In this document: piece by piece, positions 23,881 to 63,722 of the stretch
Position numbering within the stretch: the first letter of the stretch is position 1
Layout of the letters: the number at the start of each line of letters is the position of its first letter
Origin: Dioscorea cayenensis subsp. rotundata
Lineage: Eukaryota; Streptophyta; Magnoliopsida; Dioscoreales; Dioscoreaceae
Direction: 5' to 3'
DNA length: 64,000 nucleotides
Assembly (NCBI RefSeq): GCF_009730915.1
Contig: NC_052481.1
Coordinates: forward strand, 21,922,461 to 21,986,460
Position numbers and translations under genes: made by a program
Notes under the pieces: model-generated
The model's database searches: none
What the model was told of the DNA's origin: nothing
Seen by the model: only the letters and a program-made list of their open reading frames with translations

Positions 23881-24990
23881 AGCAAGGGCGACCTTAGGTA
23901 TAGGTCTTGGCCTCCCTTAGCATTGCCGCATAGGTGGCTGAAGCCTATGACTAAGACCCCACAACATCCTAAGACCCTAGAATTCATATATTTTTTTTTA
24001 CCCTAGAATTCATTTAGTAACTATGATTTTGAAAATTTTATTTTTTGATAGTATAAACTTAATTTATGATAATATCAATATATATTAAATTTGACTTACA
24101 CAGGGCCTGTAATTTTTTGGGTCTCACAACTCATGTTTTTCATTTTTTTTTTTTACATATTTAATGTCATCCTATGACAGTTTTTTAAAAAAATATTTAC
24201 TGTCATCCTACGACACTATCCGCAAATTTATTTTTTTATATTTGATAGATAATAGAGCCAAATTTCTCCTTCTCATAACCCTATGGATCTTTTATTCCTT
24301 AAGAGAGGTTTAATCTTTATAGGGAAATGATAATAGGCATGCCGATCCTAGAGCATAGGCATTGGCCTGCCTTAGGCATAAGCGATCAAGGCCTATTCCT
24401 AGGACCCCACAATTCACTGAGACCCTAAAATTCATTTTTTTAAAAATTATATTTAAAATTATCATCTAGTATTATTATTCAATCCACATAACTATGATTT
24501 TGAAAATTTTGTTATTTAAAAGTATAAAATTTAATTTATAATAATATCAATATGCAATAAATTTGTCTTACAACAAGGCCCTGCAATTTTTCTGGGTCTC
24601 ATAATTCATGTTTTTCATTTTTATATTATTTAATGTCATTCTATAATACTATCTACAAAATTATCTTTATGTCCCCCGGGACAATACAACATAGTTGACA
24701 TCTATCATATGGCTTTCTAACTCCATTTCTTTTAAAATTTTAACTTTTTTTTAAACAATAACATTTAACTTATTATAATATCAATATATAATGAATTTGG
24801 TCTTATAATTATAATTAGCCCCTCAATTTTTTATAATTAGCCCCTCAATTTTCTAGGTATCACAATTCTATCCACATAAGTGCTATCTTGAACTATAAGA
24901 TTTAATTTATGATAATATCAAGGGCAATTTGGTCTTATAATATGGCCTCGTGTTTTTTTAGGGCCTTACAATTCATATTATTTTTTCTAA
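23881..24990. repeat. Diverged direct repeats (about 400-460 bp units)
   Basis: Units starting near 23881 and 24345 share the order: TTAGGCATA/GGTCTTGGCCT-like words, ACCCCACAA, AGACCCTA(G/A)AATTCAT, an AT-rich block with TATGATTTTGAAAATTTT, AATATCAATAT, then GGCCCTGCAATTTTT and GGTCTCATAATTCATG. A third, more decayed unit follows from about 24830. They look like old fragments of one transposon family; no coding capacity was seen. Confidence 0.6.
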
Positions 24991-24994
24991 AAAA

Positions 24995-26307
24995 AATTAT
25001 ATTTAAACTTTTTATTTACTATTATATATTATCCACATATTATAATTTTGAAAATTTTAATTATTTTTAAATTAAAAACTTTATCTTATTCAATTGATTT
25101 ATGATAAAATTTAACTTAATTTTATTATATAATTTATTATTTGATAAAAATAATTTAAAAAAACATTTATCATAATTTTGCTCATGGCCCTATTTTCCCG
25201 TAAGAGTTGTTCCTTGTGGGGTTTTGGAAATCTCCTCATTAGGGTTATTTGATGGCTTATTTGGCTAAATTGAAATAATCGTATTTTTAATTACTCAATG
25301 CTTTCATATTTGCTCATTATTTGTAATATTGACCATATGATTTGAGTAAATAAAACTCTAGATGCAAAAAAGGCCAATGTGGATGAGGAGATACCAATAA
25401 TCAAAAGAAGTCTAACTTTCACCGAGAATTCGGTGATGCATGAAAGTCAAGACAAACAACTACAAGGAGAATGTTCTGATAGTCTATTTGCCTCTTTGTC
25501 ATTTTTGTGTTTTGTTGTCTTGTTTTAAAAAAAAGCCTATTTTTCATTGAGATTCGTTGATCCACGAAACTCAACGCAAAATAACAGAGTGGAATGACTG
25601 ACTCCAACACCTGAGGGGAGAATGTTATGATAGTCTATTTGCCTTTTTGTTGTACAGCTGAGGGAGAATTTTCTGATGGTTTATTTGCCTCTTTGTTGTT
25701 TTTATATTTTGTTTTCTTGTTCTAAAAAAAAACCTAACCTTCATTGAGAATTCGCTGATGCATAAAACTCAACACAAAAATGACAGTTTGGAACGACTGA
25801 CTCTAACACATGAGGGGAGAATGTTCTGATAGTCTATTTGCCTCTTTGTTGTATACATGAGGCTGAGAATGTTCTAATAGTCTATTAGCCTTTTTGTTAT
25901 TTTTGTGTGTATTTGTTTTATTTATTTTAATTTCGCTCTCTTATCCACTTTGTTGAAAAAGAACTCTCCATTTAAAAATAATAATGAAACATTTTGTTAT
26001 AAATGAAATTCAAAAACCTTTAACTAACTGTGGAGTTGGAAAGATAATAAATTTATTTAAATAAAAAATAAAATACTAATATATTAATCAATCCAACCAT
26101 ACTTAGTTTTAATTCAGTTTATCGTGAACAAATATATTTTTTGAAATTTATGAAGCTCATCCACGATATATTTTTCTCGCTTCATCGCAAATAAATGTTT
26201 TCTTATTTAAACATGATTTTATTTAAATGAATCCCAATTTTGGATGTGCCACCATGGCAAATGTAAACATGAAAAAAATAATAGAACACTTGTATAATTT
26301 TATAAGG
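24995..26307. repeat. Large direct duplication, copy A
   Basis: It pairs with 26440-27490 in the same orientation. Shared landmarks are TTATTTGATGG.CTATTT (25245 and 26725), GAGTAAATAAAACTCTAGA, the GAGGGGAGAATGTTCTGATAG block, GAAACATTTTGTTATAAATG (25985 and 27158) and GCCACCATGG. Copy A contains extra internal repeats (about 25440-25900) in which the GGGGAGAATGTTCTGATAG block recurs. Confidence 0.75.
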
Positions 26308-26439
26308 CCCCACAATTTTTTTGGTCTCATAATTCATGTTTTCATTTTAAAAAAAAAATTACTGACATCGTGTGGATATTATCCACAAAATTATCTTTTA
26401 TGTTGGATGGATGATATAGCCAAATATTTTCTTTTCTAG

Positions 26440-27490
26440 AAGAAAAATTATTATTAAACTTTCTATTTACTATTATCTTACGATATTATCCGCACGTTAT
26501 ATACGATATTATCCGCACATTATAATTTTGAAAATTTTATTTTATTTTTAAACTATAAAATTTATCTTATTTAATTGATTTATGATAATATTTTTTATTA
26601 TATAATTTATTATTTAATAAAAAAATTTTAAAAAAATATTTATTATGATTTTGTTTAGGGTCTTATTTTCTCTAAGACCCATAATAGTGTTCTTTGTTGG
26701 GCTTGGGGATTTTTCTCATCGGGGTTATTTGATGGGCTATTTAGGTAGAATGAAATAATCACATTTTTAATTACTCAGTGGTTTCATATCTACTAATTAT
26801 TTGTGAAATTGACTATGTGATTTGAGTAAATAAAACTCTAGACTCAAAAAAGGCCAAAGTGAAGGAGGGAATATTGAAAAAAAAAAAAAGCCTAACTTTC
26901 ACCTACAATTCTTTGACGCATGAAACTCAACGCAAAACGACAACATGGAACTACCGACTCCAACACCTGAGGGGAGAATGTTCTGATAGTTTATTTACCT
27001 ATTTGTCGTTTTTGTGCTTTGTTTTTTTAATTTAATTTTCGCTCTTTGTCGTTTTATTTTGATCTCCACGGATGGCAGAATTTTTTTTTACAGTTAATAC
27101 TTTGTTTTTTTCCTAGTTCAATATATTAATGGTTTATTTATATCTAAAAATAATGAAACATTTTGTTATAAATGAAATTCAAAAGATTTGAACTCTAGAG
27201 ATGGAAAAAAATAATAACTTTATTTAAATACAAGATAAAATACTAATTTATTTTTAATTAATCAAACCATAAGTAGTTTTAATTCAGTTTATCGTGAATT
27301 TTTTTTTTTTTTTTGAAATTTATGAAGCTCATCTACGATATGTTTTTCTAGCTTCATCACAAAATAAATGTATTTTTATTTAACCATGATTTTATCTAAA
27401 TGAATCCCATTTCGGATGGGCCACCATGGTAAATGAAAACATAAAAATAAATAAATAAATAAATAAATCACTTGCATATATTTATAAAAG
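26440..27490. repeat. Large direct duplication, copy B
   Basis: Second copy of 24995-26307. The offset falls from about 1478 bp at its left to about 1173 bp at its right, so roughly 300 bp, corresponding to extra internal repeat units in copy A, is absent here. Confidence 0.75.
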
Positions 27491-40958: not shown

Positions 40959-41958
40959 NNNNNNNNNNNNNNNNNNNNNNNNNNNNNNNNNNNNNNNNNN
41001 NNNNNNNNNNNNNNNNNNNNNNNNNNNNNNNNNNNNNNNNNNNNNNNNNNNNNNNNNNNNNNNNNNNNNNNNNNNNNNNNNNNNNNNNNNNNNNNNNNNN
41101 NNNNNNNNNNNNNNNNNNNNNNNNNNNNNNNNNNNNNNNNNNNNNNNNNNNNNNNNNNNNNNNNNNNNNNNNNNNNNNNNNNNNNNNNNNNNNNNNNNNN
41201 NNNNNNNNNNNNNNNNNNNNNNNNNNNNNNNNNNNNNNNNNNNNNNNNNNNNNNNNNNNNNNNNNNNNNNNNNNNNNNNNNNNNNNNNNNNNNNNNNNNN
41301 NNNNNNNNNNNNNNNNNNNNNNNNNNNNNNNNNNNNNNNNNNNNNNNNNNNNNNNNNNNNNNNNNNNNNNNNNNNNNNNNNNNNNNNNNNNNNNNNNNNN
41401 NNNNNNNNNNNNNNNNNNNNNNNNNNNNNNNNNNNNNNNNNNNNNNNNNNNNNNNNNNNNNNNNNNNNNNNNNNNNNNNNNNNNNNNNNNNNNNNNNNNN
41501 NNNNNNNNNNNNNNNNNNNNNNNNNNNNNNNNNNNNNNNNNNNNNNNNNNNNNNNNNNNNNNNNNNNNNNNNNNNNNNNNNNNNNNNNNNNNNNNNNNNN
41601 NNNNNNNNNNNNNNNNNNNNNNNNNNNNNNNNNNNNNNNNNNNNNNNNNNNNNNNNNNNNNNNNNNNNNNNNNNNNNNNNNNNNNNNNNNNNNNNNNNNN
41701 NNNNNNNNNNNNNNNNNNNNNNNNNNNNNNNNNNNNNNNNNNNNNNNNNNNNNNNNNNNNNNNNNNNNNNNNNNNNNNNNNNNNNNNNNNNNNNNNNNNN
41801 NNNNNNNNNNNNNNNNNNNNNNNNNNNNNNNNNNNNNNNNNNNNNNNNNNNNNNNNNNNNNNNNNNNNNNNNNNNNNNNNNNNNNNNNNNNNNNNNNNNN
41901 NNNNNNNNNNNNNNNNNNNNNNNNNNNNNNNNNNNNNNNNNNNNNNNNNNNNNNNNNN
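40959..41958. other. Assembly gap (1000 N)
   Basis: Exactly 1000 N. The round number suggests an unknown-length scaffold gap. Open frames that run through it are artefacts. Confidence 0.98.
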
Positions 41959-42078
41959 TTGTAAGCTCCCTTTTTCATCTAATTTTTTTCACTTAGAATT
42001 ATTGATCATTAATGAGTAAAATTTGGAATTTTAACTTCAAATTTCTAAATGAGGTGCCTTTTTTATATATAATTTTAA
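41959..42078. repeat. Direct repeat flanking the AHL gene, left copy
   Basis: TTGTAAGCTCC, then CATCTAATTTTTT, AAAATTTGGAATTTTAACTT and CAAATTTCTAAATGAGGT, recurs at 45794-45910 in the same orientation, about 3.8 kb away. It begins exactly at the gap edge, so the full extent on the left is unknown. Confidence 0.85.
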
Positions 42079-42689
42079 GTAGGCAAGAACTTGTTCTAGT
42101 TTCCTTTTGAGCCACTAATTTGATATTAGTTTTTTTTCATTTACTTTTAAATATAGCTAATTATGTATCTAACTTCAAAAAAAATACTGTCTAATATCTT
42201 AAACCTACAACAAAAAAAAATATCCATTAACAGAACTTCAATTTTAATCTCATAATTTTTTTGACAAAAATTTATAACAAATAGTACGGTTAAACAAAAT
42301 ATGTCATGCATGCATGTAGTACTATACAAGTAACAAAAATAGTACAAGCATTTATGTTTTGTCTATCTCAAGTTTGGCATCCTGCACACTATCCTCCCCT
42401 GGATACTGAGGCCCGCTTTCGGCGAGCAGGCATGTTGCTTGTTTCAGGTTCAATTTCAAGATCAGTGTCGGTGTTGATTCGGTCTTCTTCTTCTTCAAAA
42501 GAGCACTGAAAACCCCCACAACCACCTGACAGAAAGATTATATATAATGTAAATATGCTAATATGAAATTGATAGTATATACCAGAGTTAATTTTAAGAT
42601 TGATTACTGATTGAGCGCAGTTGACCTGAACACGGGTTGCAGCTATGAGTACATCACCAACACATCCACCGATCACTCTACCATCAGAG

Positions 42690-42697
42690 CTAGAAAG
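42690..42697. repeat. 8-bp target-site duplication, left copy (CTAGAAAG)
   Basis: CTAGAAAG stands directly before the TAGGAATGG terminus and is repeated at 44181-44188 right after the opposite terminus. Confidence 0.9.
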
Positions 42698-44180
42698 TAG
42701 GAATGGGGGTGGGGCGGGGAATCCCCGTTCCCCGCGGGGCCCCGCCCCGACGGGGAGGGGATTCCCCGAAACGTCCCCCCCGTGGGGCGGGGAGCGGGGA
42801 AAAAGTCCTCCCCGCCTAGCGGGCGGGGCGGGCGGGAATGGTCTCCCGCCCCGCTCCCCATGAGGCACGGGCCCCATGCCGCGCCGGATTCCCCGGCCCC
42901 GTGCCCCGCATGGATTCCCCAAAAAAATATAATATATATTTTTAATATATTTATTAAAGATTATTTCAACATTAACATAATATTATATATATATATATAA
43001 TCAATAAATATTTATTTATTAATATTTTTAGTTATTATTATGGAACTCACAATTATTTCATACAACTTATTAACTATTTAAATTTATATATTTCATTAAA
43101 ACATATTTATTTAATAAAATCTTAAATTATTTTAATAAAATTATTATATAATATATCTACAAAATTTAAATTCAAACTTCTATTTTTCAAATTTCTAATA
43201 TTCACAAAAAACTAATTATTTATTTAATTTAAATGAATTGGATAATTAGGTAATTGTCTAGATTTTTTTTATTCAAATATCCCTGTGTTGCTACATATAA
43301 AAGAGTACTGACATATTATTAGATCTTCAATTTTTTTTTTATTAATCATTGGTTGAAAGATATTATTAATATTATTACTTGAATTTATTTCTATTAAGTT
43401 AATGTTATTTGTGAAAAAAAAATTGCTTGTTTATTTATGTATTTCTTTATTTTTGAATATTCATGTTTATGGTCAACAATTCAAGCTATTTGTTCTACAT
43501 TTGATGAAGAGGAGGATGAGAATGATGAGGTAAATATGATTTAATTTTATAAAATTTTATCTTTAATCTTGATATTATTTATAATCTTATTATATATTTA
43601 CAATTTTGTTTATTATTGAAGGGGGAGTTATCATGTCAAGATGCTAGTGGTAGTGGAATTAGATTCTCAATATAAATAATTTGGAGAAAGAACAAAGAAG
43701 AAATTGATGGAAGCATGAAATTATTGTGCTAGTTTTTGCATTATGAATTTTTATTTAATGGATTTGTAATTTTAATTTAGTTTTTAAACTTTATGTTATT
43801 TTGTACCTTTAATGTTGTTGTTTCATCAAACATTATATTACTGACTTTGTTAGGAGAAATATTTTATGTGAATTTTTTTATTTTTATATATGATGTACGT
43901 ATGTTGACTTTGGTTGAGAATTTTTATTTTTATTTCATCATACATTATATTTTTATTTTCAATCAGATATAAGATCTTTAGCGATGAATATAAATCGTCA
44001 TTGAAATATTATAGTTATTTATAGAAAATTTTTTTATATTAATATTTTGGAGCGGGGATCCCTCATGGGAGTGGAGTGGGAGGATTTTTTCGCATGAATT
44101 TTTAACGGGGAATCCCCGCCCGTGGAGAGCGGGGATGGGGACGGGGATCCCATTCCCCGCCCGCCCCACCCCCATTCCTA
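42698..44180. mobile_element. Non-autonomous hAT-type DNA transposon (1483 bp)
   Basis: Perfect terminal inverted repeats of about 21 bp start TAGGAATGGGGGTGGGGC at both ends and are flanked by the 8-bp duplication CTAGAAAG. An 8-bp duplication and TAGG-type ends are hAT features (Ac/Ds have similar ends). The subterminal 150-200 bp on each side are extremely GC-rich, built from GGGGA/TCCCC words in both orientations, while the interior is AT-rich. No transposase is encoded; a short acidic stretch near 43500-43530 (FDEEEDENDE) could be a remnant of an autonomous relative. It has inserted in the PPC-coding exon of the AHL gene. Confidence 0.9.
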
Positions 44181-44188
44181 CTAGAAAG
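44181..44188. repeat. 8-bp target-site duplication, right copy (CTAGAAAG)
   Basis: Matches 42690-42697; in the AHL reading direction this is CTTTCTAG, part of the Leu-Ser-Ser codons. Confidence 0.9.
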
Positions 44189-45136
44189 AGTTATGCTTAA
44201 TCCATCCACACTTATCACTAATTCACCATCTTCATCAGGTGTAAAAGAACCAGACAAGCTAATTATGTCTGGCCTTGTACCCTGCATAGATTCATGAACA
44301 AATTAATTCTATAAAAATTAAATAGTTCAATACACAATTGAGTGCTCTTTCAAAAAAAAAATAATAATAATAAATAAATAAATAAATTCTAGATGTTACA
44401 AAGTACACATCATTCATTAAATTATACAGTTTTGTACTGAACCTCATAAGTGACAACACCACCGGCAGTAGAAGGACGGCGAAGAGTGGCGGAGGAGACA
44501 GAAACGTTCACTGATATGATGCATAAATGCTTTGGACCCTCTTCAGTAAAAGATATTATCTTTTCTGCAATATTCTGCAGAAAAAAGCACATCTTTAGAT
44601 GCAGAAAACAATGTTTCATTGCAGAGAAATCCACATAACAGATTATGAATATCAGATAGACATAAACCAATGTAAAATTTACCAAAGAATTCATACCTCC
44701 CCAACATCAATGATGATCATGTATGAATTCATGAGACCTATTCCAACTGGCCCAGTGACCGAATTCCCTGACAAATTAAGACAGTAAATCAACAGTATCA
44801 AACATCCCAATTTCCAGATACACAAAAGAACATCATCATCATCATCATCAACAACAACAACAGAGTTATAAATCAAGGAATTCATCAGATGAACAACTCA
44901 CCAGGAGAACTCAACCGTTGTCTACTTCCAGAACCAGAAGGCCTTCCACTCCCTCTCCTGGGCAATGGAAATGCATCCATGGCAGCAGCATCAGCTGCAT
45001 AGTTTGATGCCATACCTGGTACATACTTCCTGGGCCTCCCTCTCTTTCTTCTCATTGCTCCCCTTAGGCCACTCCCAATTTCAGCAACGGCCTTCCAACC
45101 TTGAGAAGAGACATTCATGGCTTGCTCCCTTTCCAT

Positions 45137-45793
45137 CACTTTTAGCAACCTGATCAACAAACCATAAAACCCAATAACAAAAAAAAATAAAAAATAAAAA
45201 ATAAAAAAAAGTAAGAAGAATAAAAATAAAAAAAAAGTGAAGATTGAAACCCTAAATTTAGAAAAAAAAAAGTATTATGTATATACTTTCTTTCTTTTTT
45301 CCTATTTGGAAAACAATGGTTTATTTCAAATTTATTAAGTTTGTTACAATAAATTTTTACTAATTAATTTGAATATATGACATTTGTTATAAAATAAATA
45401 TGATAATCAGTACAAAGTTTCACTAGAAACGTATGCGTCCTAAACGACAAAAAATTACAGCAAATAGCACCGTAAGACAGATAATATATCCTGCGTATAG
45501 TACAATTAACATAAATAGTAACGTGCCGCATTATAGTAATGTGAAACTTTAAATAGAGTATACAGAGAAAAATAAACAGAGTAACTTGAACGGTATTCTG
45601 TTCTGTCATAGGATGCTTTGTCATGGAAGAAGAAAGACCATTTACTCACTATTTTTAATTTTTATTAAATTATTTTTTTTTTAAAATGGTTTTCTTGCAT
45701 TATTGATGAAATAATTATAGTAATAATAATAATAATAAATTTGGATGATATAATGTAAATCTGAAACACACTAAAATAAGATGTTTTAAAATA
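45137..45793. other. Upstream region of the AHL gene
   Basis: Directly upstream of the AHL ATG, GTTGATCAG could be a leader splice acceptor. The A-rich run at 45180-45235 and the AT-rich spacer beyond show no further gene. Confidence 0.4.
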
Positions 45794-45910
45794 TTGTAAG
45801 CTCCATTTTCATCTAATTTTTTGTTCAATTAGCATAATTGATCATAAGTAAAATTTGGAATTTTAACTTCAAATTTCTAAATGAGGTCCTTTTTTTATAT
45901 ATAATTTCTA
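45794..45910. repeat. Direct repeat flanking the AHL gene, right copy
   Basis: Same sequence and orientation as 41959-42078. Its right end shows a local duplication of CTAAATGAGGTCCTTTTTTT (about 45878 and 45908). Confidence 0.85.
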
Positions 45911-46017
45911 AATGAGGTCCTTTTTTTATATATAAAGAAGGTGTGACATATATATGTGAAGCTACTCAACATAGTTACATGAGAAAGTTCTCGCGATGAC
46001 TTGAACAGTGACCGACG

Positions 46018-47772
46018 ATGAGATTCCTCGGCAGCTCTCGCGATGGCTTCGCTAGATCAAACGTCGGATCCCGGCAGGTTCGTGGCGGTGCTCGCGGAGG
46101 GTTTTCTGGAAGAGCTCGTAGAAACCCTAGGTCTTACGTCCACCCTTCTAGTTCTTCACGAAGGACCTCCCCTCCTCCTCTTCCTCCTGTTAACCAGGCA
46201 TCACAGAACCCCTCCATCTTCAAAGCCTCTCCTGTGAGAGATGGCATCTCCTTTGCCGAAGTGGTTCGCTCCCCTCCTTCTACTGATCCTCTGCCTCCGT
46301 CCCTTCCAATCTCTCTGAAACGCCGTCGTTCCCCGGAATCTTCTGATACTTGCTCGAAGTGCTTGCGCTCGGGACACAAAGCTGAGGAATGTCGACACCA
46401 ACTCACTTGCAAACGTTGCTCTGGAGTTGGTCATTTCGCTATTCGTTGCCCACTCCGAACCCCGCCCCATCATCCTGATTTCAAGAAGACTAGGATGAGA
46501 TCCAAACACCCTCTTCAGGGAGCCTCCTCCGATCACTTTCCACAGGGAAAATCCTCAGAACTAAAACCTCTACTCCATGTACCCGTGCGCCCTCTTCCTG
46601 CTTCTCTCCGTGTATCCTTGCCCATCACTGAAGCCATATTGAAATCAAAGGAAGACCTGAAAAAAATGGTGGTAATCAAAGTCTTATCCGGCAACGCCAG
46701 CACTCGCTCACTTCATGCCTCTCTCTCTCAATGCTTGAACACAGACCTTTGTGAACATATTACTCCATTCAAAGACGATTTCATCCTCACTTTGGCCACC
46801 GCTAGAGACGCTGCACTGATGGTGAAGAGAAGTCCAATCTCTCTTAACTCCTCTCTTGGACCCTGCTGCATCTCCCTCTCTCTTTGGACTGCTGAATTTG
46901 GATCCCATGCAGTACCGGCTGGCAATTACAACTGGATCAGAATCACTAATCTTCCTCTTCACTGCTGGAATTGGGACTCGATCGTCGAGATCCTCCGGCC
47001 GATTGGCGACCTGATATACGTGCAAAAGAAGGAATACGTTACACTTGAACACCTGCGAACTTTGGTTAGACTCAAACCCTCAGTTCACTTCCCATTGGAG
47101 GTCACGGTGGACGTTGGCGTCAGAAGCTTCCTTGTCAAACTTGAGGATGATGGAGCTCACATACTCCGGTCCAAGGTTGTCCATGGACCAGTTTCTCATC
47201 CTCGCACTCAAATCAAGCCAGCGCCGACTAGTCACAATGCCATTTATGTTCCTAAAACTGATAAGGGTAAGGAACTTCTCATCTCTTCTACGGTGAAACC
47301 GTCGAGCGTCGCTCCGGTTGATATCCCTCCTCCCATCATCTTCTCCTCCGGCGAGACCGTTGAGCGCTGCTCCGGTCTCGGCCAATCGATGAGGACAAAC
47401 ACCAGTGGATCTCAGGGAGACGCTCCTCCTCCCGTCGTTGATCGGCAGCTTGCCGGAATCTCGGAGATCCCACTGGTCCGTTGTGAGAATCCCAAGGAAG
47501 TCGACACACTGTTGTCTAACAGCGGCGACGTTACGATCAGGCTTACACAGGCCGTTCCCTCGCCTCGTGATGAGAACTCCACTTTTTTCCTTGGCTCCTT
47601 GCAATCGGCCGTTCCTTCACGTGATTGCAACCCCAATGATTCCCATAATTCTATTGATTATTTAATCAAACCTCGAGATGAGATCACATCTGATCTCTCT
47701 TTTCCTCGAGATCAGCTTCCTGATCATATCTCCCCTACCCCACTTGATCAGATGCCTCGTGATGGTCATTCC
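46018..47772 (+). CDS. LINE-type retrotransposon first ORF (DUF4283-like, zinc knuckles), truncated by a gap
   Basis: A continuous frame of 585 codons from the ATG at 46018 to the edge of the N run. The start is Arg/Gly-rich. Two CCHC zinc knuckles follow, CSKCLRSGHKAEEC and CKRCSGVGHFAIRC (residues about 120-155), then a DUF4283-like region from about 215 (VVIKVLSGNASTRSLHASLS and WIRITNLPLHCWN) and a Ser/Pro-rich tail. This is the nucleic-acid-binding ORF that precedes the reverse transcriptase in plant L1-type LINEs. The knuckles lie before the DUF4283-like part, the reverse of the second copy at 58942. The GC-rich composition differs from the flanks, as expected for inserted DNA. The rest, and any reverse transcriptase, is lost in the gap. 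Confidence 0.75.
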
Positions 47773-48772
47773 NNNNNNNNNNNNNNNNNNNNNNNNNNNN
47801 NNNNNNNNNNNNNNNNNNNNNNNNNNNNNNNNNNNNNNNNNNNNNNNNNNNNNNNNNNNNNNNNNNNNNNNNNNNNNNNNNNNNNNNNNNNNNNNNNNNN
47901 NNNNNNNNNNNNNNNNNNNNNNNNNNNNNNNNNNNNNNNNNNNNNNNNNNNNNNNNNNNNNNNNNNNNNNNNNNNNNNNNNNNNNNNNNNNNNNNNNNNN
48001 NNNNNNNNNNNNNNNNNNNNNNNNNNNNNNNNNNNNNNNNNNNNNNNNNNNNNNNNNNNNNNNNNNNNNNNNNNNNNNNNNNNNNNNNNNNNNNNNNNNN
48101 NNNNNNNNNNNNNNNNNNNNNNNNNNNNNNNNNNNNNNNNNNNNNNNNNNNNNNNNNNNNNNNNNNNNNNNNNNNNNNNNNNNNNNNNNNNNNNNNNNNN
48201 NNNNNNNNNNNNNNNNNNNNNNNNNNNNNNNNNNNNNNNNNNNNNNNNNNNNNNNNNNNNNNNNNNNNNNNNNNNNNNNNNNNNNNNNNNNNNNNNNNNN
48301 NNNNNNNNNNNNNNNNNNNNNNNNNNNNNNNNNNNNNNNNNNNNNNNNNNNNNNNNNNNNNNNNNNNNNNNNNNNNNNNNNNNNNNNNNNNNNNNNNNNN
48401 NNNNNNNNNNNNNNNNNNNNNNNNNNNNNNNNNNNNNNNNNNNNNNNNNNNNNNNNNNNNNNNNNNNNNNNNNNNNNNNNNNNNNNNNNNNNNNNNNNNN
48501 NNNNNNNNNNNNNNNNNNNNNNNNNNNNNNNNNNNNNNNNNNNNNNNNNNNNNNNNNNNNNNNNNNNNNNNNNNNNNNNNNNNNNNNNNNNNNNNNNNNN
48601 NNNNNNNNNNNNNNNNNNNNNNNNNNNNNNNNNNNNNNNNNNNNNNNNNNNNNNNNNNNNNNNNNNNNNNNNNNNNNNNNNNNNNNNNNNNNNNNNNNNN
48701 NNNNNNNNNNNNNNNNNNNNNNNNNNNNNNNNNNNNNNNNNNNNNNNNNNNNNNNNNNNNNNNNNNNNNNNN
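47773..48772. other. Assembly gap (1000 N)
   Basis: Exactly 1000 N; probably an unknown-length gap inside the LINE. Confidence 0.98.
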
Positions 48773-52599: not shown

Positions 52600-53035
52600 A
52601 GAACATGCTCTCGAATTTTTATTAGACAATTAAATGTCTTATCGATCAGCATTTACACAAACACAAATATTAAAAAAATAATAAGATATTAAAATTTTAG
52701 ATTTTTTTCATATTTTAAACAATATTTTATATGGTTGTTAATTGATAACATAGATATACATAAAAATTAAATACTTTGGATCAAAAGAAAGCGACATTTT
52801 TTCAAATAAATGGTTCTTAATGTCTTATACGGAAGATTATTGTTTAATTTTGCAGGAAAGCTACAACTAGCCTTAATCACATTAAATGCTAGAAATGATT
52901 TATAACGGTAGGTAATATGTCTAGAAATTATTTATAGTGGTAGGTGATATGCCTAACAATTATTGCAACGTCAACGCAGTATTTCATTGTCTTTTTTTTA
53001 ATATTTATTTGAATTTTAAAAATACATCCCACAAG
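52600..53035. repeat. Repeat block interrupted by the LINE, left part
   Basis: It matches 57225-57820 (landmarks GACAATTAAATGTCTTAT, AAGATATTAAAATTTTAGAT, TTGATAACATAGA, GGAAGATTATTGTTTAATTT, GCAGTATTTCATTGT). It ends with ATCCCACAAG at the LINE's left edge. The other copy reads on without a break, so this is a split copy. Confidence 0.8.
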
Positions 53036-53042
53036 TTTTGAG

Positions 53043-53753
53043 AACCATTTCTTTCGGATCTTTGGTCGTGCGAGAGCTTTTGGGCTTAAAGTGGACCTCA
53101 GGAAGCTGTTTGCCTTCAAGTCTCAAGTTGATCTGTCCTCTTTGGAGCGGCCGTTCACGATGGAGGAGCTTAAATGTGCGGTTTTTGAGTTGGGGCGAGA
53201 CAAAGCGCCGGGGCCGGATGGTTTCCCTTTGGTATTTTTTAGGGAATTCTGGGAATTAACCAAAAACGACTTATGGAAGCTCTGTGAGGATTTTTTTGCG
53301 GGAAAGGCAAATCTCGAAAGAATTAATTGGGCAAATATTGTGCTCATTCCTAAGGTAGACACTCCTACGTCGCTTGGGGATTTTCGACCAATCAGTTTAA
53401 TTAATTCTACTGTAAAGATCATCTCCAAGATGTTGGCTTCCCGATTAGGCAAGGTCATGGATAAGCTTGTGGAGCGTGAACAATCTGCGTTCATGAAAGG
53501 GAGATGTATCCTTGATAACATTGCCACTGCAGAGGAGTTGATTTTCAGTATGCATAAAAATCACTCTGCTGGGCACATTCTGAAAGTTGACTTTGCGAAG
53601 GCGTTTGACACGGTGGACTGGGACTTTTTGTTGGAACTTTTACAGGCTAGGGGCTTTGGGGTCAGATGGGTGGAGTGGATCCAGCGCCTACTATGTTCCT
53701 CTAAGGCCTCGATTCTTATTAATGGGTCTCCAGATGGGCTACATCCCGTGCAG
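53043..53753 (+). pseudogene. LINE reverse transcriptase, N-terminal part
   Basis: The frame encodes the start of a non-LTR reverse transcriptase: DKAPGPDGFPLVFF, LIPKVDTPTSLGDFRPISLI, KGRCILDNIATAEELI and KVDFAKAFDTVDWDFL (the first catalytic Asp region). It ends at TAG 53754-53756, where the next bases still read RVRQGDPLSPLLFALVMD, so the enzyme is broken by a stop. Confidence 0.88.
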
Positions 53754-57859: not shown

Positions 57860-58840
57860 TGTCACGCCCTGAGCCCAAGGCATCGACAAATGACCGCATA
57901 CCCACAGAGCTGAAACCTAGTGGGCACACAAGCCCTTAATATTTGTCTCACAAATATAAGGTATAACAAGGTACCAATATCATAAAAACATAAGAATTTA
58001 AGGGATACAATAACTAGGTTTACAACTATAATTTATGGAAACTAAAAGTGCAAGATACAAAGCTTTAAACAAATAACAAGTTCGAAGTTCACAACAGAAG
58101 GACTATGTACATGCTAACTAACTGGTGTTCACTCAACAATCCCCGCTAAGCTATCCATCACATACATACTCATGATCTGGAAAGGATAAAACCACTATTT
58201 ATAAGCTTGACTAAGCAACCACTAAAAACAACACAAATATAGGGATTACAAAAACTCAATAATTTCAAAAACATGCCCAAAAAAACATAACTTATAGTAT
58301 TCCAACAAACATAATTTTCCAAATAAATGAGTATATATGTCTCCCAAATAACTAATGCCGAAAACAAAATCACAGAATTCATATATTTAAACTCGGTGAC
58401 CCAAGTTGGATTGTCATAGTTCATTTATTAACCCTCGATGACCGAAGCCAGATTATCGAAGGCCGTTATTCTCCATCGATGGAACAATGCAAAACTATGG
58501 TTTCTTATCAGAGTCAAAGATTTATGTCGACATGGTCAGTGTTTAACCCCCAATGACAAAATTATTGCAAAGTTAACTTGGGGACTACAAGCTATATCAA
58601 AATATGTCGGTTCTAAAATTATTGTCAACGCGGAGATACTGAAATTCGATGATCTCATTTGTCTAATGAAAATAATTCTAATTATTTCAAAATAAAATAA
58701 AACTAATATGTGACAAGAATAATTAGAATTCAGTCAAACATGTAATAACAATAATTAAAATATAAGTAATCAATAACTGAATACATAATTAAAGTTATAA
58801 ATCATGATTACTGCAAACCATTCAATACTGAAGTAATAAG
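57860..58840. other. Unclassified repeat-like region
   Basis: TGTCACGCCCTGAGCCC at 57860 resembles the start of some plant LTRs, but no CA end with a matching target duplication was found. A frame of 85 codons at 58438 has no recognisable domain. Confidence 0.35.
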
Positions 58841-58941
58841 TGCTTCTAAAGGTTCAAAGTAAAAAGATATCTCTTCTCCACTCCTGCCTAGAGAACCCCT
58901 CCTCTCTGTTTCTGCTTCATCTTCCTCTTCCCCCTCTTGCT

Positions 58942-60212
58942 ATGGCGAGTGGGGGGCCAGCTCCCTCGCCTGAACCCCTTCGCCCCTCTCCTCCTTCTTG
59001 GGCTCAAATCGCCTCCAATCACACTAAAACTCAAGAAACCTCCCCCCTCCACAATCCTGCAGTCCTTAACAAACTCAAAGAAACTACCACCGATTTCGTT
59101 AAGCTTGATAGCGACACTCTAAATCGTGCCCGCCTGAGATTCCAACACTCACTCTTCGGCAAATTCTTCGGAAAGCCCCCATTATTTGAACAAGTGAAGT
59201 CAATACTCCTGAAGAAATGGGAAAGCTTTGGAGATATCCTGATCTCTGACCTTCCTAATGGTTTTATTCTTATACGTTGTTCTAATGAGTCTGTGATGCA
59301 GCGACTTATCTCTGAAGGACCTTGGACCATTAATGGCATCATTCTTCAGTTGTCTCCCTGGCGACCGTATTTTGAACCTTCGTTCACTAAGCTCACTACG
59401 GCTGCAATATGGATCCAACTTCATAATCTTCCCATTGAGTTCTGGAGTGGAGATACTTTAGAAACCATTACTGGTCAATTAGGTAATCTTCTGAAAATAG
59501 ATGAGCTTACTCTTTCTCTAACCCGTACCAAGTATGCCAGGATCTGCATTGAACTCGATCTTTCTAAACCGCTTTGCAAAGGCTTCTGGCTTGGAGATGA
59601 CTTTCATCGGGTCTTCATCGTTGTCTTGTATGAACGTCTTCCAACATTCTGTTATTCTTGTGGAGTGATAGGGCATGGGTCTAATTTTTGCAACCGCGTT
59701 CCAACAACTGGGAAGGCTAATGTCTATCAGCCCCCTCGTCAGCAGCGAGGGATGGAGGTTAGGCAGGAGCCGTCTCCCATGGCTGTCGGAACCGGTGCAA
59801 GTGATGCTGTCCCCTTCCCTACTCCTAGTGAGATCAATGACCCGTCGTCTTCCTCTATTCCAGAACCTGAATCGGATTTCGGACCATGGTTGCTCGTCTC
59901 TCGCCGGCGTGGCCTTTCCCGTTCTCGCGGTGGCAGTGTTCGCACTCCCTGTGCGGTTGCGGGATCGGCAGCCGACCCGAGAAGCGACGAGCGGTCATCC
60001 CGAGGCAACGATGGTCTGAGCTTACGTGGTGGACTCAGGGGAGGCGCTAGTGGGCGGCGTCACTCTCCCCCTGTCACTTCGCATGATTCCCCGTGTCTGC
60101 AGCTCTCTGTTCATTCTGACTTAGCTGTTGGGGCCGTTCCTCCCGTTGCACTTCCTTTAAAACCTGGGAACTCGGTTTCGCTCCATTCCAATGTCCCTAG
60201 GGACTCCACTAA
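58942..60212 (+). CDS. LINE-type first ORF (DUF4283 plus zinc knuckle), cut by a Harbinger element
   Basis: From the ATG at 58942 (MASGGPAPSPEPLRPSPPSW) the frame encodes a DUF4283 region (ILISDLPNGFILIRCSN, EGPWTINGIILQLSPWRP, IWIQLHNLPIEFWSG) and a CCHC knuckle CYSCGVIGHGSNFC at about residue 237, then a Pro/Ser-rich tail. It belongs to plant L1-type LINE first ORFs but is not a close copy of the one at 46018. It loses homology at the TAATGGGGCGTTTGG junction at about 60212, where a DNA transposon begins; a frame stop follows at 60376. An in-frame upstream ATG (58840) is possible but its extension is not conserved-looking. Confidence 0.75.
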
Positions 60213-60235
60213 TGGGGCGTTTGGATCATGGATTG

Positions 60236-60270
60236 AGGGCTTGGGAATGGGAATCTTATTCCCAAGCCCT
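60236..60270. repeat. Perfect 13-bp hairpin near the Harbinger left end
   Basis: AGGGCTTGGGAAT and ATTCCCAAGCCCT are exact reverse complements separated by nine bases. Subterminal palindromes like this are common in Tourist/Harbinger elements. Confidence 0.85.
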
Positions 60271-61738
60271 TGTTTGGTAACCAGGAGAGGCATAGGTTGC
60301 CTCCATGCATGGGAAGAAGATTACTCCCAGGAGAGGCATCCTATTCCACTCAAAAATGAGAGGAGAAGTATGCCTTAGTTATGAAAGTACTAATTTACCC
60401 TTAGCATATATAAAGCCTCTTTCCTCACTTTCACGATTTTTTCTTTCCCATTCTCCGTGATAGAACCCTACTCGGCCGAACCCTCGCTAATCCCGGTTTT
60501 GCTATCTCGCACCCTCCTGCGCGTCCACGAGGTACTTTTCCTTCCTTCATTTCAAGCTTCTTTGATTTCATTTTATCAAAGTCAATGGATTTTGTGATTG
60601 ATAATGGCCGGCATAGCAGATCACGGAGGCTTGGGGCATTGCCAATCGATCGGATCTCGTCCGGTCCCTATTGTCGTACAATCTCTTTTCCGAGCACAAG
60701 GTATAGATCTAGTATTATATCAAATTTTTTATTATTTATCTATGCGTATGTCTGTGAGGATCTTGTGATTGTGTATTATAATTAAAAATTCTTTTTTTTT
60801 TGTTTTTGAAATCTGTTTGTTTATTGAAGATAAGGTTCACACGGTTTGCTTTGATGGCTGGATCTAGTGTAGAAAGTTTCCATAGTATTTGAAATTAAAT
60901 GGGTCTTCAACATTTGATTCTTTGGTTATATAATTGATGAAAATGTTGGTTTTTATTCTTATAACATTTTACTTGAATTTTATATATTGGGAATTTATCA
61001 GAGTGATGAGTATGATATTATGAATTAGCTTTAACAAGGTGTACAAGATTCTCATACTAGCATACGAAAACTTTTCTTTTTATGGCTAGGATTATTAGCA
61101 TAGTACTAGTGGATAATTTAGTATATAATGGGGGCGAGTGTTGGTAACCCTTGAAGTATGGATGAGAGAAAAACCCTAACCAGTCGGGGATCGACGTGAT
61201 AAGCAGAGACACCAATTGATATGATATTTTTTTAACAAATTATTATTTTTTTATCTTAAGTGTTAATAAAACAAAATAAAAAAAATCAAATCTTAGTACA
61301 AGTACTATTAGATTTTAAAAAGTTAAAACCTTTAGGTTTAAAATTCTCAACCATAATTGAAAAGGATAATGGATAAATAAAGAATATAAATTGTATAATT
61401 TTTGTGTTGACTTAAATGACCCGAGTTTAGGATGATATTTATTTTTTTAAAATTATCACATATTCATGTATTAACAATAATCTTAATTAATTGACATATT
61501 TTTAAAGCGGATCTTCTTTAAAAATTATTAAAATTATTTTAAAATTTTAAATATATATATTATCCTTATAAAAAAATCCAACTTACAACTAATTAGATAA
61601 CTCCATAAATTTTAATTTATTAATTTTGATTTAATTAATACCATTATCATGTTTTTAGATTTTTTTGTTTGGTGCAAACTACATAATAAATATGATATTA
61701 AGTCCCTATATCTTTTTAATAGTTAAAACAAAGATATG

Positions 61739-62345: not shown

Positions 62346-63722
62346 ATGGATAATGGAAATATGGAAGATGTCCAAGTGGAACAAGTACTTTACATGATGT
62401 ATGCATGCATTTTTTTTGCTGTGAACATCATTATCACTGTATGTGTAATAAGTGAAGAAAGTGATAGAGAAAATGTGATCCATTATGAGATTGAATCAAC
62501 ATCTACTAGACGCCGCAGACAACATGAGTATCTTTATTGGGTAGTTTACGAAAGTGACATAAAGTGTATTGATAAAGTACGCATGGATCGACGTTGTTTT
62601 CATAGCCTATGTCAATTATTAACAATTACCGGTGGGCTACGCGGTACAAGAAATGTCATGGTAGAGGAAATGATAGCAATGTTTCTAAACATTGTGGCCC
62701 ATCATGTGAAAAATAGGATAATTAAATTTGACTTTGTCCGATCGGCTGAAACAGTTAGTAGACACTTCCATGCAGTTTTGAAATCAATTATCCTTTGCCA
62801 TGGTGTCCTGTTGAAGAAACCTGAACCTATTCTTGAAAATTCAGATGATTATAGGTGGAAAATGTTTAAGGTAATACTACTAAATTCATGTTATTTGGAT
62901 TAAAAATACAATAGATTTTTTAGTAGTAATAATTTGTTTTCACAAATGTAGAATTGTCTTGGAGCATTGGATGGAACACATATTCGTGTCAATGTGCCAA
63001 AAGTTGATCGACCAAGATATAGAACAAGAAAATCTGAAATAACTACAAATGTACTCGGTGTTTGCAGTCAAGACATGCAATTTATATATGTCTTGTCCGG
63101 TTGGGAAGGCTCAGCACATGACGGTCGAGTTCTTAGGGATGCCATTACAAAGCCCAACGGTCTAAAGGTTCCAAATGGTAGATAAATGTGTTCTTCAATT
63201 GAATATAACATTACTAATGAAAAAAAATTAACAAAAAACACTAGCTAACATCAACTACTCATTTGTGGTCTAGGTTGTTATTATTTGGTCGATGCTGGAT
63301 ATGCAAATTCACCCGGGTTTCTTGCACCTTTTAGAGGTCAGCGATATCACTTAAGCTCTTGGGCTAATGGTCGACAACCAAATACAGCTCAAGAGTTTTT
63401 TAATATGAAGCATGCTGCGGCTAGAAATGTGATCGAGAGGACATTTGGGCTTCTTAAAATTCGTTGGAAGATTTTAGCAAGTCCAAGTTTTTACAATATT
63501 ATCACTCAAAGGCGTATCATTAACGCATGTTGTTTACTCCACAATTTTATTAGAAGAGAAATGACAGAAGACCCTGCAGAGGATGAAATGAACAATCTAA
63601 TATTTGAGGAGAGCACCGAAGAGGACAACGATAGCATTACAACTATTGAGCCAACTGATGGTTGGACCCAATTTAGGCTAGACATGGCTACGGACATGTT
63701 TAATGTATGGAGATCAAATTGA
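62346..63722 (+). CDS. PIF/Harbinger transposase (DDE_Tnp_4 family)
   Basis: Three exons, 62346-62870, 62952-63177 and 63274-63722, joined by GT-AG introns, give 399 residues with no frame break. The DDE triad is visible: D182 in [10 protein letters not shown]257 in [11 protein letters not shown] and E305 in [11 protein letters not shown]. The second and third are 47 residues apart, the DD47E spacing of PIF-like transposases. [11 protein letters not shown] and [13 protein letters not shown] are further family blocks. The protein would cut and rejoin the element's terminal repeats, normally with a Myb-like partner encoded by the same element. The chosen ATG follows a likely leader acceptor (TTTCTTTATTAG). 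The intact triad and frame suggest a young, potentially autonomous copy. Confidence 0.92.

Follow-up and report, generated by a model that had tools for sequence, protein, structure and literature searches.

A non-autonomous hAT insertion in an AHL-type gene of Dioscorea cayenensis subsp. rotundata, apparently one of several independent losses in a small gene family

The locus described here raises the question of whether a transposable element has recently knocked out a chromatin-associated regulator, as a sequence-only reading had proposed, or whether it landed in a gene whose loss mattered little. In the window, by which we mean the whole stretch of 64,000 nucleotides analysed, exon 4 of a five-exon AHL-type gene (minus strand, 45136–42352) is split by a 1,483-bp element at 42698–44180. 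The outer 21 bp of the element are perfectly inverted, and an exact 8-bp duplication, CTAGAAAG, lies on both sides of it at 42690–42697 and 44181–44188. Size, inverted ends and duplication are as the sequence-only reading gave them, its positions 42697 and 44181 being the inner bases of the two duplications. The features are as follows:

42352–42525, minus strand: AHL exon 5 with the stop codon (frame reading)
42626–42697, minus strand: AHL exon 4, 3' part after the insertion, one duplication included (frame reading)
42690–42697, no strand: target site duplication CTAGAAAG, first copy (present once at the empty site of each of three paralogs)
42698–44180, plus strand (that of the transposase of a longer relative): non-autonomous hAT element, 1,483 bp (ends, duplication, genomic relatives and a longer relative with hAT domains)
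42698–42718, plus strand: left terminal inverted repeat, 21 bp (end comparison)
44160–44180, minus strand: right terminal inverted repeat, 21 bp (end comparison)
44181–44188, no strand: target site duplication CTAGAAAG, second copy (repeat search)
44181–44281, minus strand: AHL exon 4, 5' part up to the insertion, the other duplication included (frame reading)
44443–44574, minus strand: AHL exon 3 (frame reading)
44697–44767, minus strand: AHL exon 2 (frame reading)
44902–45136, minus strand: AHL exon 1 with the AT-hook KRGRPRKY (frame reading)

This is the only place in the window where an 8-bp direct repeat surrounds inverted ends of at least 11 bp lying 100–8,000 bp apart; in 30 first-order Markov controls such places occurred 0.03 times per window on average, and the longest inverted end was 11 bp.

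Removal of the element and one duplication (together 1,491 bp, a multiple of three) leaves an exon 4 of 165 nt, or 55 codons, and the claimed restoration of phase is borne out. The five exons (45136–44902, 44767–44697, 44574–44443, the interrupted 44281–42626, and 42525–42352), separated by four GT-AG introns, then form a frame of 777 nt with no internal stop, encoding 258 residues. As expected of an AHL protein, the AT-hook of exon 1 is followed by a PPC domain (Pfam PCC/PPC, residues 93–208, E 6e-16); a search of PDB chains with the 258-residue protein gave no match up to E 1. The AT-hook, the PPC domain and the four introns are shared with the AHL genes of clade B, which is the intron-containing clade according to the accessible part of PMC5241283, and the gene is 40–56% identical per exon to the nearest intron-type relatives examined. 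It departs from clade B in that it reads RPDII, within GTRPDII, where RFEIL or RFELL stands in all six of the other AHL matches spanning the motif (seven loci examined), and in that all four close copies found are disrupted. RPDII in this position marks the gene as AHL-like but diverged, so that it may have ceased to work as an AHL. Deletion of GRFEIL turns AHL15 dominant negative, as stated in the portion of PMC9540020 available.

The host genome (584 Mb) was searched with the element plus one flanking base on each side, yielding 80 match rows; 40 of 898 first-look candidates were scored, so that the copy number is a lower bound only. Full-length matches ended at query bases 1–2 and 1484–1485, and the boundaries that the sequence-only reading had drawn are therefore those that related genomic copies have in common. 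Among the scored candidates were four near-full copies, 87–90% identical by BLAST, while partial or short rows reached 95%. An exact 8-bp duplication was found beside matching ends in 14 of 24 fetched copies and one with a single mismatch in five more; in one copy (L028) the duplication does not match, and for L010, L052, L053 and L054 the end search found no pair, the left end of L053 lying beyond the part fetched. When more than one pair of ends came into question, the one with the best duplication was chosen, which biases these counts toward matches.

A longer relative (L009, contig C16) measures 5,784 bp between the copies of an exact duplication, GTCTGAAT, and contains three separate plus-strand frames, the middle one without a family match, with domain matches to zf-BED (8.1e-7), hAT-like_RNase-H (7.3e-11) and Dimer_Tnp_hAT (4.8e-31). 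The assignment to the hAT type is upheld by these domains in a relative with the same ends, by the 8-bp duplications, and by 21-bp perfect inverted repeats, which fall within the 10–25 bp range given for hAT elements in the available text of PMC3942097. As to the Ac family within hAT, the window target fits the consensus nTnnnnAn, quoted for hobo in the accessible part of PMC8961557, but T at position 2 and A at position 7 occur together in only 4 of 15 exact targets, and T at position 2 in 11 of the 15.

The window element aligns to bases 1–653 and 4918–5784 of L009 at 88–89% identity, both ends being common to the two. The BLAST blocks cover element bases 1–655 and 651–1483 against L009, and 5–655 and 651–1483 against L053. 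Since it matches the two outer parts of the longer element, the window element is an internally deleted, non-autonomous derivative of such an element, with two further features:

43348–43352, plus strand: internal deletion junction (element bases 651–655), where blocks about 4.26 kb apart in L009 meet (overlapping BLAST blocks against L009 and L053)
43350–43382, plus strand: remnant of the transposase C-terminus, WLKDIINIIT and stop (the L009 frame ends DWLKGIINIIT)

Of the dimerisation frame, only the final ten codons survive. The region at about 43440–43676 was considered as the transposase C-terminus and rejected: neither of two peptides taken from it matched a Pfam family up to E 1, and against L009 the remnant falls at 43350–43382. 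Because alignments of the four near-full copies run through the junction, the internal deletion probably predates the insertion in the window. No donor copy was found among these four.

A protein search of the host genome for AHL copies, in which all 60 candidates were scored, gave three close copies besides that of the window, at C11:21728829-21730093, C11:21561521-21562832 and scaffold C1503:1056-2280 (L049, L050 and L051 below, the last being on C1503). A DNA search with the upstream flank, in which 40 of 71 candidates were scored, found the same three gene copies again; none of its matches was a near-identical second haplotype. As C1503 is unplaced, L051 may represent an allele of L050 instead of a fourth locus. 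All three close paralogs carry one CTTTCTAG at the site, with no element and no scar. The insertion is therefore derived and is not an ancestral intron; the same sequence as a spliced intron in all related genomes was one objection that the sequence-only reading had raised against itself.

From the nearest paralog, L049, the window copy differs at 24 of 1,253 aligned sites, 18 of them among 766 in exons and 6 among 487 in introns. The empty site in L049 places the insertion after the split of these two copies, unless L049 lost the element precisely; the 1.2% difference in introns, at an assumed 7e-9 substitutions per site and year, puts this split very roughly at 0.9 My. The insertion may be called recent, as had been suggested, only in the sense that it followed this split; the intact ends, on which the suggestion was based, and the duplication by themselves date almost nothing. 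Dating by the duplication alone was abandoned: with assumed rates of 1e-9 to 7e-9 it gives a 95% bound of 27–187 My. Against a very young age stand the private differences of the window element (39 of 1,383 sites), which are no fewer than in its four near-full relatives (17–37), although they may have arisen in an unsampled donor.

Each of the paralogs is broken in its own way, as judged from pairwise alignment. Exon 4 of L049 carries an 11-bp deletion, and a 1-bp change sits at the extreme end of its exon 5; the reading frame is shifted in exons 3, 4 and 5 of L050 and in exons 1 and 5 of L051. In the window copy the element is the sole clear lesion. A 1-bp difference at window position 42474, in exon 5, separates the window copy and L049 from L050 and L051, so that the tail is already out of frame in one of these subclades. 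Between the subclades exon divergence (0.055–0.063) is like intron divergence (0.062–0.064; Fisher p 0.54–1), and dN/dS is 1.03, 0.82, 1.06 and 0.70 in the four comparisons; on these figures the copies appear to diverge with no sign of purifying selection. Inside the subclades dN/dS is 0.43 (window and L049) and 1.07, with exons more diverged than introns, though not significantly (p 0.21 and 0.36). The value of 0.43 rests on 6.5 silent and 8.5 replacement changes (Fisher on rounded counts p 0.22), which leaves room for constraint on the branch of the window copy and L049. The AHL family is probably redundant or relaxed, and we read the hAT insertion as one of several independent losses within it. 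The claimed knockout of a chromatin-associated regulator is thereby weakened: the element does interrupt the exon of the PPC domain, but in one of four close copies found, the other three of which are disabled by lesions of their own; between the two subclades of these copies exons diverge about as much as introns.

Were the element retained in the message, translation would yield 180 native and 25 foreign residues before a stop 1,476 nt ahead of the exon 4 donor:

44102–44104, minus strand: premature stop codon inside the element, if unspliced (frame reading)

On the gene strand AATAAA occurs 16 times in the element, which makes early polyadenylation possible as well. The message would be lost by nonsense-mediated decay or would stop short within the AT-rich element; a protein, if made, would keep the AT-hook but lack the last ~28 of the 116 PPC residues.

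It is very probable, in our estimation, that a deleted hAT derivative was moved by a foreign transposase into exon 4 of one member of the AHL cluster. An Ac-like hAT transposase from another element would have mobilised the 1,483-bp derivative of a ~5.8-kb hAT element, which on landing in one member of this small gene cluster would have duplicated the 8-bp target. The copies being redundant or already relaxed, the insertion would have mattered little, and the duplicate that it hit was probably of this kind. A different view, that this insertion came first and itself caused the loss of a regulator that was working and under constraint, while the other copies decayed earlier or independently, seems to us unlikely. 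It draws on the open frame of 777 nt in the window copy apart from the element and on the low dN/dS to the nearest paralog, but that ratio is indistinguishable from 1, the comparisons between subclades (0.70–1.06, with exon divergence equal to that of introns) point the other way, the GRFEIL motif is replaced in the window copy, and in one subclade the tail had already lost its frame.

Still less credit is due to the possibility that the element is spliced out and a near-normal protein still made. Splicing of Ds1 from maize exons offers a precedent (titles of works cited in PMC3260210), and a passable acceptor, TTCCTACTTTCTAG, is present at the junction. Yet the best of the 27 donor-acceptor pairs that keep the frame open has a summed score of 1.0, against 10.5, 10.3, 3.7 and 6.3 for the gene's own introns, all scored with approximate matrices, and none of the pairs tried restores the native protein. 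That the insertion is older than the cluster and was lost from the paralogs by precise excision or gene conversion is very improbable. Sequence by itself cannot separate precise excision from insertion, as the available portion of PMC4423477 notes, but two or three precise losses would be needed in place of one insertion, and the paralogs show a single unscarred target; according to the same portion, most excisions leave scars, with 8 perfect cases out of 94 putative ones, where perfect means that both duplications are kept. Equally remote is the idea of a lineage-specific AHL subfamily without GRFEIL, spread by local duplication, whose copies would now encode truncated AT-hook proteins at most, in the window because of the hAT insertion; if it were true, these products could serve as natural dominant-negative modulators of other AHL proteins, and truncation would have been selected rather than tolerated. 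The reading of a short hAT insertion into a redundant or relaxed duplicate accommodates the close copies found being broken too, each differently, and the case resembles an everyday insertion into a gene family in decay more than the removal of a key regulator.

Closest among known elements are Ds and Ds-like elements of maize, from the hAT superfamily, which have the same short inverted ends, 8-bp duplication and deletion derivatives that need foreign transposase (accessible part of PMC3260210). The first 11 bases of the window element match the maize sequence TAGGGATGAAA at 7 of 11 positions, its ends are dense in CGGGG/CCCCG words where Ac has AAACGG repeats, and the longer relative measures 5.8 kb against 4.6 kb for Ac. 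In rice, too, an exonic DNA transposon was identified from an empty site with one copy of the target; of the 487 transposon polymorphisms compared there, a single one, a Mariner, disrupted a gene, and recently active elements were overwhelmingly non-autonomous (all from the available text of PMC4423477). Here, unlike the rice Mariner, a hAT element sits in a decaying duplicate. Judged by titles and the beginnings of abstracts, in literature lacking most subscription journals, there was no report of a transposon insertion in an AHL gene, and searches with five end-like sequences, judged in the same way, returned no published work concerning this element. The locus offers a well resolved exonic insertion of a non-autonomous hAT element, for which one genome supplies empty sites, a longer relative bearing a transposase, and a family of copies. 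A further lesson is that a striking insertion needs a check of paralogs before it is labelled a regulatory knockout, the three other close copies found being disabled here by lesions of their own.

Several observations concern the surroundings. A direct repeat of ~119 bp (88% identical; 41959–42075 and 45794–45907) flanks the AHL gene, and parts of this repeat, as well as of the upstream flank, are found again next to L049, which suggests duplication of the gene by unequal exchange between such repeats. Assembly gaps of exactly 1,000 N lie on either side of the gene (40959–41958 and 47773–48772). At 45187–45234, 31–48 bp separate the upstream flank from the gene, compared with ~575–1,230 bp in the three paralogs; this reflects either a deletion in the window or insertions in the paralogs. 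Rfam gave no match in the window at gathering scores. LINE-like frames at 46012–47769, 53013–53753 and 58840–60375 show DUF4283 with zinc-knuckle (weak in the first) and reverse transcriptase matches, the first opening ~0.9 kb upstream of the AHL start codon. A transposase frame at 63249–63719, which we take to be probably of Harbinger type, matches DDE_Tnp_4 (E 1.6e-14) and Plant_tran, and dense diverged direct repeats, with pieces 75–100% identical, occupy 24018–27454.
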